Part shown: positions 8,755 to 53,259 of the stretch, one piece after another
How the letters are laid out: each line of letters opens with the position of its first letter
Position numbering within the stretch: position 1 is the stretch's first letter
NCBI RefSeq assembly: GCF_011065895.1
Contig: NZ_JAALCR010000004.1
Span: 310,001-374,000 of the forward strand
Reading direction: 5' to 3'
DNA length: 64,000 bases
Source: Paludisphaera rhizosphaerae
GTDB taxonomy: Bacteria; Planctomycetota; Planctomycetia; Isosphaerales; Isosphaeraceae
Translations under genes and position numbers: made by a program
The notes under the pieces: model-generated
What the model saw: only the letters and a program-made list of their open reading frames with translations
What the model was told of the DNA's origin: nothing
The model's database searches: none

Positions 8755-8930
8755 TCCAAGTCCCCTGTCCCCCCGGGAGAGGGTGGCCCGAAGGGCCGGG
8801 TGAGGGTCGTCGGATTGGTAAGCCTAGCCATGAGTCCGCGATCGCCTGCCTCCGAAACGCATTCCGAGATCCGATGACCCTCACCCGCCGCTACGCGGCA
8901 CCCTCTCCCGAGGGAGAGAGGGGACCAAGT
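8755..8930. repeat. inverted palindromic repeat, CCCTCTCCC subfamily
   Basis: Two similar units of about 50 bases face each other: 8760-8808 and 8876-8925. Each has a CTCCCGAGGGAG-like palindrome, then a second short palindrome (GCCCGAAGGGC or GCCGCGTAGCGGC), then GGGTGAGGGTC. The spacer of about 67 bases shows no gene. The architecture matches the repeats at 26707, 36489, 52474 and 59771, although the bases differ enough to be a separate subfamily. It lies between a lipoprotein gene and the UnbV gene and accounts for most of the 284-base gap there. Confidence 0.8.
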
Positions 8931-26706: not shown

Positions 26707-26960
26707 GGCCTTCCCCCCTCGCGGGGGAAGGATGAGGGGGGATCGGCGTCGCACCGAGAGCCAGCCGCCTGGGTGCCGTGGCCACGCTTGCGTGGCCACG
26801 TGATCGGCGACGGTCGCGCGGTCGTCCTACGCCGGGTCATGGCCACGCAAGCGTGGCCATGGCACCCGATTGAAAGCCAACCGCTGAGCAGACCTCCGTC
26901 GCAAGTCCCCCTCTTCTGATCGCTTCGCGATCTGTCTTCCCCCGCGAGGGGGGAGGACCG
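26707..26960. repeat. composite palindromic repeat between plsX and fabD
   Basis: The outer arms are 26707-26750 and 26905-26960, inverted copies of the CTTCCCCCCTCGCGGGGGAAG unit also seen at 52474. Inside them lies a second inverted pair of 29-base units, 26771-26799 and 26839-26867. These differ at two positions, and each is itself palindromic around GGCCACGC/GCGTGGCC. No frame across the region looks coding. It accounts for nearly all of the 355-base plsX-fabD gap and could act as a transcript processing or attenuation element. Confidence 0.85.
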
Positions 26961-35575: not shown

Positions 35576-37375
35576 ATGAGCCCAGCAGCCCCCGCCCGTT
35601 CGCATCACCCCCATCGCCGTGAATGGACGCTCGTCGCCGCCATGACGGCTCTCGGACTGCTCATTCGAATCTGGGGGCTAGGGAAGCTCGGCCTGGTCCA
35701 CTTCGACGAGGGGATCTACGCAATCGCCGGCCTCTGGCCCTTGCGGCCGGGAGGGCTCGACCCGATCGCGGTCCCCTACGCTCCTCCAGGATTCCCCTTC
35801 CTGATCGGGCTCTTTTACCTGGTCTTCGGCCCGAGCGACGCCGCGGCCATCCTCGTTTCCATCATCGCGGGGACGCTGGCGGTTCCGGTTTCGGCCTGGC
35901 TGGCGCGGCGGACCTTCGGGCCGGGGGCCGGCGCGACGGCCTCGGCCCTGGCTGCGCTCTCAGGCTTTCATGTCGCCTTCTCAAGGATGGCGCTGACCGA
36001 CGCGACGTTCACCCTGGCCTGGCTGTTGGGACTCATTGCCGCCCAGCGCTTTCTCGAAAAGCCCAACCCCGCGACGGCCGTGCTGCTCGGCCTGGCGACC
36101 GGGCTGGCGCAACTGGTGAAGTACAGCGGATGGACAGTGGGGATCGCCGTGATGCTGACCGCAGCGGCGATCACGATCCTCGATCCGTCCCGACGAACGA
36201 CCGCCGACCAGCGCCGGGTCTGGGGATGGGGCCTGTTGGCGGCCGTGGTCGCAGCGATCGTCTACGCCCCCTGGTATCGGTTCGTCGAGACCCACGGCGG
36301 CTACGCCGGGCTCATGGCGCACCATCGCGGCTACATGGGGACGCCCGCAAGCTGGCTGCCGCACTGGGCCTTGCAGATTGAGCAGGCGAGCGTCCTCTCC
36401 GGCGGTTTCTCGTGGAACCTGGCGGCGGTCGTCGCGGCCGCGGTGGGGATCTGGATCGTTGGAGCAGGGGAGCCGACGAATGGAGAAAGCGAGGGACCGC
36501 GCAGCGGCCGGATGAGGGGGGATCGGCGTCGGATTGAAGACTCCGCGCCGGATGCGCTTCCGAATCCGGTCGCCCCCTCATCCGGCCCTTCGGGCCACCT
36601 TCCCCCGCGAGGGGGGAAGGCCGTGATCCCTTTGCTCGTCCTCGGCGCCGCGACGGTCGTTGCACCGACCACCCTCTGGTGGATCGGCCTGGCGCTCGCG
36701 GCGTTCGCCTGGCGCGACGCCTCGCCGGGACTTCGATTGCTGGCCGTGGCGTGGGTCGGACTGTCAGTCCTGACACCGTTCTATCATCCTTACGCGCGGT
36801 TATGGCTGCCGATCCAGGCGCTGGGGTGGATCGCCGTGGCGGGGATCGTCGGCGAGTTGATCCGGCCTGCCGAGGCGCCTCGATGGCGGACTCCGTTCGT
36901 CCTTGCCTGCTGCGTAGCGGCGGTCGTGCAGACGTTCCTGATGGGGCCCCTGTTCGGGAAGGTCGGCGACAGGGCAGGGCTGCTCGCCCCGAGCGATTCG
37001 CTCCGGACATCGACCTCCCGCGCGTTGGCCGATCTCCCCGAGGCCGCGCCGGGCCTCCGGGTGCTGGCGCGGCCTCCAGTCTCCTTCTATATAGGAGGCC
37101 GTGCGGCGGCGCGGGTTGAGCCGGACGTCGAGGGTCTGCTGCGCGTTCCCGGCGGCGCGTGGGCCCTTGTGGACGCAGCGCAGCTCCGTCAATCTGGTGA
37201 CGTGGACGGCCTCGTCGCGAGGCTGTCGCAAGGTTGGGAGCGGGTCGGCGAATATCCTACATCGCTGAACCTGCCGACGCAGCTGGACGTCGACCCCGGC
37301 GCAGCGGCTCGTCCGCGGCCGAGAGAGGCCGACGCGCCGCTCTGGTTGTTCCGTCCCCGTCCGGGAGTCCGCTGA
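35576..37375 (+). CDS. GT39/ArnT-like membrane glycosyltransferase with a repeat-derived insert
   Basis: This polytopic GT-C enzyme (599 residues) should transfer a sugar from a polyprenyl-phosphate donor on the outer face of the membrane. The first external loop has HFDEGIYA with Asp44-Glu45, the catalytic acidic pair typical of the family. About ten hydrophobic spans are visible, followed by a C-terminal soluble part of about 130 residues. Residues about 305-349 are encoded by a palindromic repeat (36489-36621) lying between membrane spans. They are Arg/Pro/Gly-rich and unlike the family. A possible -10 (TAGAAT, 35562-35567) sits 8 bases before the ATG. The stop overlaps the pncB start (TGATG). 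Confidence 0.87.
   Translation: MSPAAPARSHHPHRREWTLVAAMTALGLLIRIWGLGKLGLVHFDEGIYAIAGLWPLRPGGLDPIAVPYAPPGFPFLIGLFYLVFGPSDAAAILVSIIAGTLAVPVSAWLARRTFGPGAGATASALAALSGFHVAFSRMALTDATFTLAWLLGLIAAQRFLEKPNPATAVLLGLATGLAQLVKYSGWTVGIAVMLTAAAITILDPSRRTTADQRRVWGWGLLAAVVAAIVYAPWYRFVETHGGYAGLMAHHRGYMGTPASWLPHWALQIEQASVLSGGFSWNLAAVVAAAVGIWIVGAGEPTNGESEGPRSGRMRGDRRRIEDSAPDALPNPVAPSSGPSGHLPPRGGKAVIPLLVLGAATVVAPTTLWWIGLALAAFAWRDASPGLRLLAVAWVGLSVLTPFYHPYARLWLPIQALGWIAVAGIVGELIRPAEAPRWRTPFVLACCVAAVVQTFLMGPLFGKVGDRAGLLAPSDSLRTSTSRALADLPEAAPGLRVLARPPVSFYIGGRAAARVEPDVEGLLRVPGGAWALVDAAQLRQSGDVDGLVARLSQGWERVGEYPTSLNLPTQLDVDPGAAARPRPREADAPLWLFRPRPGVR
36489..36621. repeat. palindromic repeat inside the GT39 gene
   Basis: The left arm, 36489-36532, lacks the first palindrome but keeps GCGCAGCGGCCGGATGAGGGGG. 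The right arm, 36572-36621, is the inverted full unit ending in CCCCCGCGAGGGGGGAAGG. The element is read through in frame. The same unit occurs in hemY (52474) and between plsX and fabD (26707). Confidence 0.88.
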
Positions 37376-51645: not shown

Positions 51646-53259
51646 ATGCGGGACGAGGCGGCGGATCCGGGCGTGGACGTGGCGATCATCGGCGGCGGAA
51701 TCACCGGTCTGGCGGCCGCGCACCGGCTCCGCGAAATCGCCCCCGACTTGACCGTCGCCGTGCTTGAGGCCGGCGATCGCCCCGGCGGGGTCCTCGGGAC
51801 GATCCGACGCGACGGCTACCTGATCGAGCAGAGCGCGGACAGCTTCATCACCAACGTCCCCTGGGCGATCGACCTCTGCCGCCGGCTCGGCCTGGAAGAC
51901 CGCCTGATCCAGACCGACGAACGGCATCGACGGTCGTTCGTCGTCCGCAAAGGGAAGCTGGAGCCGATCCCGGACGGCCTCATCATCATGGCCCCGTCCA
52001 AGATCGGGCCGATGGCGAGGACTCGCATCCTGAGCATTCCCGGCAAGCTCCGGCTGGCGATGGAGCGAGTCCTGCCGAAAGGCGACGGCGCCGACGAGTC
52101 GCTGGCCTCCTTCGCGAGGCGTCGGTTCGGCCGCGAGGCTTATGACAGGCTCATCCAGCCGCTCGTCGGCGGCATGTACACGGGCGACCCGGAACGGCTG
52201 AGCGTGAAGGCGACCATGCCCCGCTTCCTGGAGATGGAGCAGAACCACGGCAGCCTCATCAAGGCTATGAGCGCCGCCGGTAAGAAGGAGGGGCCGAAGG
52301 CCGGCGGCTCGGGTGCGCGATACGGGCTGTTCGTCGGGCTCGAAGGGGGGATGTCCGAGCTGGTCGCCGCCCTGGTCGCGAGCCTCCCGGAAGGCGCGGT
52401 CCGGACCGGAGCGAAGGTCGAGCGGATGGAGAGAGAAGGGAACGGTTGGCGGCTGCGGATGCGGACATCAGACGTCTTCCCCCCTCGCGGGGGAAGACAG
52501 ACCGCGCAGCGGTCAGATGAGGGGGACGACCAGCGGCGGATCGCGGAATACGCTTCGGATCCGCAAGCTTCTGGACCTCCCCCCCTCATCCGGCCCTTCG
52601 GGCCACCTTCCCCCGCGAGGGGGGAAGGCCGGGATGATCCGAACGACGGTGTTCGGGCGCGAGCGGTTCTGCTGGCGACGCCCCCGAGAGCGGCGGGCGG
52701 CTTGCTGCGGGACGTGGATGCCGACGTCGCCGCAATGCTGGACGGGATCGTCTCGACTTCGAGCGCGATTGTTTCGCTGGGATACAGGCGAGAGCAGATC
52801 GCGCATCCGCTGGACGGTTTCGGGTTCGTCGTGCCTTTCGTGGAGAACCGGGCGATCCTGTCGGGGAGCTTCTCGAGCGTGAAATTCGCGGGGCGAGCGC
52901 CCGAGGGTTCGGTGCTGATTCGCGTCTTCATGGGGGGAGCGAAACGCTCCGACCTGGTCGACGCCCCAGATGTGGAACTCGTGCGGATCGCCTCGGCCGA
53001 GCTGGCCTCGCTGCTGGGGATTCGCGGCGAGCCGGAGTTGGGGAACGTCTCGCGGTGGAAGTCGGCGATGCCCCAGTACGAGGTGGGGCACCTGGAGCGC
53101 GTCGCGGAGATCGAGCGGCGGATTGAGGGGATCGACGGACTGGAACTGGCCGGCAACTGGCTGGCCGGGGTGGGCGTGCCGATGTGCGTTCGCGCAGGTG
53201 AGCAGGCGGCGGAGCGAATCGCCAGCCGCATCAGCGCGGCGGCGGGGCGGGCGGGTTGA
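51646..53259 (+). CDS. hemY: oxygen-dependent protoporphyrinogen oxidase HemY with a repeat-derived insert
   Basis: HemY (also called HemG in some schemes) is an FAD enzyme oxidising protoporphyrinogen IX to protoporphyrin IX in heme synthesis. The 537-residue protein has the FAD-binding GGGITGLAAA (17-26), ADSFITNVPWAIDL, the RFGREAYDRLIQPLVGGMYTGD core and the C-terminal NWLAGVGVPMCVRAGEQAAERI that closes on FAD. Residues about 277-329 come from a palindromic repeat (52474-52630). They are Arg/Pro/Gly-rich and have no counterpart in the family, so the rest is about normal length. The frame is unbroken, so the enzyme may be active with a surface loop or may be impaired. It is divergent from the radical SAM gene, with a 137-base gap. 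Confidence 0.92.
   Translation: MRDEAADPGVDVAIIGGGITGLAAAHRLREIAPDLTVAVLEAGDRPGGVLGTIRRDGYLIEQSADSFITNVPWAIDLCRRLGLEDRLIQTDERHRRSFVVRKGKLEPIPDGLIIMAPSKIGPMARTRILSIPGKLRLAMERVLPKGDGADESLASFARRRFGREAYDRLIQPLVGGMYTGDPERLSVKATMPRFLEMEQNHGSLIKAMSAAGKKEGPKAGGSGARYGLFVGLEGGMSELVAALVASLPEGAVRTGAKVERMEREGNGWRLRMRTSDVFPPRGGRQTAQRSDEGDDQRRIAEYASDPQASGPPPLIRPFGPPSPARGEGRDDPNDGVRARAVLLATPPRAAGGLLRDVDADVAAMLDGIVSTSSAIVSLGYRREQIAHPLDGFGFVVPFVENRAILSGSFSSVKFAGRAPEGSVLIRVFMGGAKRSDLVDAPDVELVRIASAELASLLGIRGEPELGNVSRWKSAMPQYEVGHLERVAEIERRIEGIDGLELAGNWLAGVGVPMCVRAGEQAAERIASRISAAAGRAG
52474..52630. repeat. palindromic repeat inside hemY
   Basis: The complete two-arm element has its left unit at 52474-52529 (CTTCCCCCCTCGCGGGGGAAG, then GACCGCGCAGCGGTC, then AGATGAGGGGG). 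The right unit at 52577-52630 is its inverted relative. The 47-base centre has its own small palindrome (GGCGGATCGCGGAATACGCTTC). The element is read through in the hemY frame without a stop. Confidence 0.92.

Follow-up and report, generated by a model that had tools for sequence, protein, structure and literature searches.

Palindromic repeats that sit in frame within protein-coding genes are familiar chiefly from Rickettsiales, which are intracellular and have small genomes. The Rickettsia and Wolbachia elements (RPE and WPE) are described, in portions of two reports, as palindromes of ~100-150 bp that occur in many copies and lie in frame in unrelated genes, in exposed segments (PMC3767692, PMC10969869), and an excerpt of a Rickettsia japonica paper reports that orthologues share an insert at the same locus. 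REPs form a second group of short palindromes, surveyed in 2013 by Di Nocera (PMC3733652); in the sections of that survey available, Planctomycetes are among the phyla with tagged REPs, intragenic REPs are reported in other species, with uvrA among the invaded genes, and the CGTC-tagged REP class has no dedicated transposase gene. Here we describe a palindrome in the hemY gene of the planctomycete Paludisphaera rhizosphaerae that very probably belongs to a non-autonomous REP-dimer family spread through the genus, mostly purged in genes and tolerated at this site.

The window, a 64,000-nt stretch of DNA that was analysed as a whole, encodes protoporphyrinogen oxidase (hemY) on its forward strand at 51646..53259 (537 aa; open reading frame with matches to PF01593 and TIGR00562). 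As the first-pass annotation had stated, a 157-base palindrome at 52474-52630 lies in this gene without a stop: the frame 51646-53259 stays open across it, and its arms (52476-52496 and 52607-52627; 21 nt, 100% complementary) are the longest perfect pair in the surrounding 2.5 kb. Codon 277 starts exactly at 52474 and the element spans HemY residues 277-329; the Arg/Pro/Gly-rich composition claimed for these ~53 residues was borne out by counting (8 Arg, 10 Pro and 7 Gly among 53). The TIGR00562 match (306 bits, cut-off 97.85) is split into two stretches, and the solved homologues 3i6d and 2ivd align with HemY on either side of the insert. A second HemY-like paralogue, with 57% and 44% identity to HemY in two matched parts, is found in the same genome (G000) at C3:52852-54261 and also in four congeners.

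HemY proteins were aligned from 10 of 30 loci, own gene included, namely those with a frame matching a motif; the other 20 were left out. The orthologues of four congeners (G001, G002, G004 and G005), which share 82-84% identity with HemY in the N part and are 473-491 aa long against 537 aa here, all do without the element and have 6-8 residues at the turn (4/4); a fifth congener gave just a 59% match. A short turn also occupies the insert site in five more HemYs or paralogues of the alignment, and a Phycisphaeraceae HemY is likewise without the segment. In 3i6d, the aligned flanks end at residue 270 and resume at 277, leaving 6 residues between them. By these alignments, the hemY segment is shown to be an insertion relative to the congeners, recent with respect to species divergence only, and its site to be a short turn. 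The first-pass annotation had regarded the segment as an inserted, copied repeat, to be reread as an ancient domain should all related HemYs carry it; its absence from the orthologues and its many copies in the genome uphold the insertion. Because the AlphaFold model of HemY is poor (mean pLDDT 45.8 from a two-sequence alignment, too weak for a structure search), the loop reading rests on the alignments; strands 267-274 and 335-343 of this low-confidence model flank a low-confidence segment, 275-333, an arrangement that agrees with a turn and proves little. The extra residues probably form an exposed, tolerated loop that would be disordered, and we infer that HemY continues to function as an enzyme with the insert and that the insert is neutral.

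The hemY copy is a complete heterodimeric element (52474..52630, forward strand; covariance model R1, 163.8 bits) made of a B half, a spacer and an inverted A half. Half B (52474..52531, forward; BLAST of the half consensus and copy alignment) comprises hairpin 1 (52474..52498, forward; 10-bp stem and 5-nt loop, 99.7% of cells paired in 30 copies), hairpin 2 (52500..52514, forward; 6-bp stem, with a both-sided C-G to U-A change in 9/30 copies) and GATGAGGGGG. After the variable spacer (52532..52577, no strand assigned), half A (52578..52630, reverse, inverted relative to B; BLAST of the half consensus) consists of CCCCCTCATCC, hairpin 3 (52592..52604, forward; both-sided G-C to C-G change in 6/30 copies) and hairpin 4 (52606..52628, forward; 9-bp stem and 5-nt loop, 98.9% of cells paired). 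At the right end, 52631..52643 on the forward strand is a partial match, in the alignment and the position profile, to the CCGTTATGGTCC tail of many copies, and the hemY copy appears from this likeness to extend ~10-15 nt to the right of 52630.

Folded as single-stranded DNA, the element reaches -62.6 kcal/mol, compared with -36.7 +/- 3.3 in shuffled sequences (z -7.9, 0/200 as good), and as RNA -112.8 kcal/mol (z -8.0). All 30 aligned copies are inverted heterodimers, B plus inverted A, with REP-like double-hairpin halves. In the four local hairpins, 99.2% of cells are paired and both-sided changes occur in 15 cells, values that none of 500 shuffles reaches in either case; in the alternative fold, a long-range pairing of arm on arm, 97.2% of cells are paired and 13 of the 30 copies are unpaired at one loop position. 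For both folds, the percentage paired, the number of cells with both-sided changes and the covariation score exceed all 500 shuffles, although kinship of the copies inflates these measures, and the remaining two of five measures, the number of both-sided-change pairs and that of pair types, are not above shuffles. Compared across copies, the hairpins are shown to be conserved. Between-copy identity is ~92% in the arms against a mean pairwise 0.50 in the middle segment, or spacer, among 93 copies, which points to arms that are under selection for mobilisation or have been homogenised. The forward reading frames of these 93 copies are open in 72, 70 and 5 of them, and the reverse frames in 10, 39 and 40.

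A BLAST search of the own genome gave 40 near-full-length matches with 79-100% identity, from 40 candidates scored of 316, and the covariance model gave 148 matches from 150 candidates scored, a figure that may count both strands of one palindrome. Five congeners, which probably belong to Paludisphaera, gave 102, 117, 122, 123 and 150 model matches, each from 150 scored candidates. Under stricter filters, any match to the element was found in 20 of 59 genomes, six of the genus among them, and matches outside the genus are few and weak. On these searches, the hemY element is shown to be a member of a family that is dispersed genus-wide. Element length, read by eye from the listed matches, is ~151-161 nt in G000, 171-173 nt in G001, mostly 171-178 nt in G002, mostly 179-185 nt in G005 and mostly 197-201 nt in G004, and such species-specific lengths suggest separate spread in each species. 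The median nearest-neighbour identity among copies is 0.90, and that of the hemY copy is at most 0.866; since most copies are not near-identical, we make no claim of present-day activity. In Rfam, four matches were obtained at E up to 1, the best with 32 bits against a gathering score of 137 and none near the gathering score. The window itself holds one more copy (26707..26958, reverse strand; model R1, 71.1 bits), which has a longer spacer and overlaps no predicted gene. The same model also picked up a palindrome at 8759-8925, again outside predicted genes, whose family is distinct from this one though related to it (CCCTCTCCC.. / CCCTCACCCGGCCCTTCGGGCCACCCTCTCCC).

The G000 copies analysed are 95 listed places of the 148 model matches, 93 of them full length and two cut by contig ends, with three at contig ends having one flank. 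Loci were extracted with flanks of ~4 kb, shorter near contig ends, frames were scored with a codon model trained on the same locus DNA, and the gene caller was built on that model. By the gene caller, 58 of the 95 copies lie between unidirectional genes, 13 between convergent and 9 between divergent ones, and 11 inside genes, while 4 have one side free of genes. The spaced gene pairs of these loci comprise 160 unidirectional, 29 convergent and 45 divergent ones, and the arrangement around the copies is close to these. The 3′ gene ends near copies are a median of 37 nt away, with 47/84 within 50 nt, and the 5′ ends a median of 113 nt, with 10/76 within 50 nt. It is thus the closeness to 3′ gene ends that is special, and the gene arrangement hardly so. 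Most of the 95 listed copies are intergenic, 11 being called inside genes and one more, at locus L066, placed there by reading, the gene caller having put it outside.

The first-pass annotation had proposed a search for the repeat inside other open reading frames of the genome, and with frames read in the G000 loci, 12 of the 95 listed copies are in frame, in 11 genes. Besides hemY, the invaded genes include uvrA (L112; TIGR00630, 863 bits, over the cut-off), a CusA/CzcA pump (TIGR00914, 990 bits, over the cut-off), a polyketide synthase that has ketoacyl-synthase and FabA domains and matches the PfaA model below its cut-off, a PSCyt1/DUF1549/DUF1553 protein, a cytochrome c peroxidase-like protein and a membrane protein without a Pfam match, presumably YfhO-like, in which the element runs in the opposite direction. 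In a Ser/Thr kinase, two tandem copies (L127 2912-3233) add ~107 residues between part of the N-lobe and the HRD motif. A 1007-aa protein with weak TPR matches (L131 10243-13263) is also invaded; in addition to the element, its linker seems to include residues translated from one or more other palindromic repeats. Two paralogues (L080 and L097) carry an identical copy near the 3′ end, so that gene and element were apparently duplicated together. Where three congeners have a stretch of ~100 residues in UvrA, G002 has a shorter one and G005 none; the invaded uvrA of L112 is likewise without it and carries the element at that place. Two copies first scored in frame, L127:7368 and L107, were dropped, as the likely start of the gene comes after them. 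The frame through L076 (C6:3785) is on the opposite strand and scores weakly (0.06 and 0.05), and this copy was left uncounted.

Within the window, a second gene also carries the element in frame. It encodes a PMT_2 glycosyltransferase (35642..37375, forward; 577 aa; PF13231, 66.5 bits), in which a truncated element at 36481..36607 on the forward strand (model R1, 70.2 bits, positions 15-141 of 156) makes up residues ~280-322; all five congeneric orthologues are without it. For seven other invaded genes, L131, L080 and L097 being left out, the element is missing from 20 of 20 congeneric regions, the kinase comparison among them resting on one 52% relative that is perhaps a paralogue, and the inserts fall in length-variable linkers or loops. 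Of 26 congener copies looked at (19 from listed model hits and 7 with an open frame reported), 25 gave no intragenic copy and one is doubtful, with near-zero coding scores.

The parallel with Rickettsia RPEs drawn in the first-pass annotation is apt in behaviour, as the planctomycete element is likewise a palindrome of ~100-150 bp in many copies and in frame in unrelated genes. However, it is found in another phylum and is GC-rich and mostly intergenic. Whereas Rickettsia orthologues are reported to share an insert, congeners here are without every insert checked (hemY 0/4, seven genes 0/20 regions, PMT_2 0/5).

In structure, the element is closer to REPs, being mostly intergenic and close to 3′ gene ends as REPs in general are. 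Set against the CGTC-tagged dimers in the available sections of the survey, the likeness extends to inverted heterodimers near 3′ gene ends, some intragenic and one in uvrA. As to a dedicated transposase, the RAYT loci examined gave no candidate here. However, the tagged REPs of those sections are 20-40 nt long and have an unpaired tail after one stem of 8-9 bp, whereas the halves of the element are ~55 nt long with two hairpins each, stem 1 leading within a few bases into the second hairpin. CGTC is possible at the B end in at most 51/80 copies (C at -2 in 51/80 and G at -1 in 77/80, before TC), the A end begins GGCC, and in place of a CCA tail the element has the tails ACAGA or GGTGG. REPINs, which are mobilised by RAYTs, resemble it in having two inverted REPs, a variable spacer and many copies, and RAYT-family genes occur in G000 (four matches; 51 of 59 genomes have such matches). 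However, the profile of 80 copies has no conserved GTAG foot at either end, neither element half was found in the 29 RAYT loci examined, two of the four G000 matches included, and congener G002, rich in the element, gave no RAYT match; mobilisation by RAYT is therefore unsupported, with 0/29 loci flanked by the element and a genome that has the element and no RAYT match. Upstream of a RAYT-like gene on C45 (L031 ~1230-1460) there is a different tandem repeat (GAAATTCGGTGTCAGTTCTATTTCCTTGCGTCGTGACCGAGTTGG). MITEs, too, are short, dispersed and bounded by terminal inverted repeats, as are the 21-nt arms here, but neither a target-site duplication nor an autonomous parent was seen in the hemY flanks or the position profile.

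Short palindromic repeats are also present in Rhizobiales, Bru-RS of Brucella being one of them. Plasmid records gave 294 element matches in 150 records, and with the exception of one planctomycete record, the organisms listed all belong to Alphaproteobacteria (by first name word, Rhizobium 95, Azospirillum 28 and Shinella 17, with two names not displayed). The matches listed cover ~50 nt of half A at 86-94% identity in Rhizobium, Shinella, Phyllobacterium and others; two of them, H20 and H21, lie under an annotated gene. Half A is 94% identical to repeats on two Rhizobiales plasmids (L187 1424-1548 and L188 1501-1547), and one Shinella plasmid copy is an inverted dimer with the same layout as the element. 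The Rhizobiales repeats thus resemble the element in half A and, for the Shinella copy, in layout, but differ in the partner half and the spacer. This likeness of half A may reflect shared descent, transfer or convergence.

It had been suggested that the element tolerates or exploits coding sequence. In a neutral model where copies land at random, out-of-frame copies are all lost and in-frame copies are neutral (open frames 236/558), ~29 of 95 copies are expected in genes at the measured coding fraction of 0.76, versus 12 observed (p 3e-5); 23.5 are expected at a coding fraction of 0.70 (p 0.003) and 42 at 0.85. The binomial test was run first with 9 copies and repeated with 12 and 10. Either most in-frame copies are lost as well, or the element inserts preferentially between genes. 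As in-frame copies are fewer than the neutral expectation, the data agree with a repeat that inserts, is purged and is tolerated, and not with one that exploits genes: tolerance stands as the simplest reading of the in-frame copies, and the exploitation part of the suggestion is not supported. Along-gene orientation, seen in 11/12 in-frame copies versus 62% expected from open frames, has p 0.028 by copy and p 0.062 by independent event, and we hence claim no preference for gene direction.

Three other accounts of the hemY insert were weighed. The insertion could have harmed HemY and left a decaying gene, the second HemY paralogue carrying heme synthesis; that paralogue exists and the codon score of hemY falls from 0.24 before the insert to 0.10 after it, but we consider this unlikely, as G001, G002, G004 and G005 also keep both paralogues, hemY has no stop or frameshift, and dN/dS 3′ of the insert (~0.22-0.29 versus congeners, mostly reflecting pre-insertion time) is not above that of congener pairs (~0.30-0.40). 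Still less probable is a domestication in which a very stable RNA hairpin or the added peptide tunes expression or function: the RNA fold and the conserved hairpin pairs would suit it, but intergenic copies have the same hairpins, the invaded genes belong to different families, and arm conservation in 9 of the 12 intragenic copies does not exceed that in the other 84, which include 3 intragenic ones (p 0.70 and 0.82). That the segment is an ancient HemY domain, palindromic by chance, accords with its open frame and has next to no probability; the same DNA recurs at many other places, and the alignments ruled this account out, the segment being absent from the 4/4 close orthologues, the five further HemYs or paralogues and the Phycisphaeraceae HemY.

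Under the preferred reading, a dispersed repeat tolerated in hemY, two different double-hairpin units, inverted and joined by a variable spacer, would make up the element. Copying and insertion at many sites would be the work of an enzyme, perhaps one that acts on single-stranded hairpin DNA, and intragenic insertions would mostly be purged. The hemY copy would have survived for three reasons: its length preserved the reading frame; the element is rich in GC, and most copies lack stops in two of the three forward frames; and the landing site was a short turn with a beta strand on either side.

In the literature searched, which took in parts of the Paludisphaera genome paper (PMC5352709), we found no description of this repeat family or of in-frame copies in a planctomycete, and a text search for a stretch of the repeat found nothing. 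The earlier statement that nothing comparable is described in planctomycetes thus holds for this family and for in-frame copies, but not for tagged REPs, which the available part of the 2013 survey reports in Planctomycetes (PMC3733652). The kind is known, from REP dimers and RPEs; the family is apparently new, and the in-frame set is the first from a planctomycete within the literature searched. A bolder and rather doubtful reading is that of a transposase-orphan REP-dimer family that is still spreading in a planctomycete genus, steadily donates disordered segments of 50-100 residues to working proteins and nearly shares one half with Alphaproteobacteria; if it were true, the repeat would cross phyla, and the RPE route to new protein segments would operate beyond Rickettsiales. 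This planctomycete, whose genome of 8 Mb has at least 12 in-frame copies in housekeeping and other genes, provides an independent case, and with empty orthologues in up to five congeners, the tolerance, fate and cost of protein segments derived from selfish DNA become testable.
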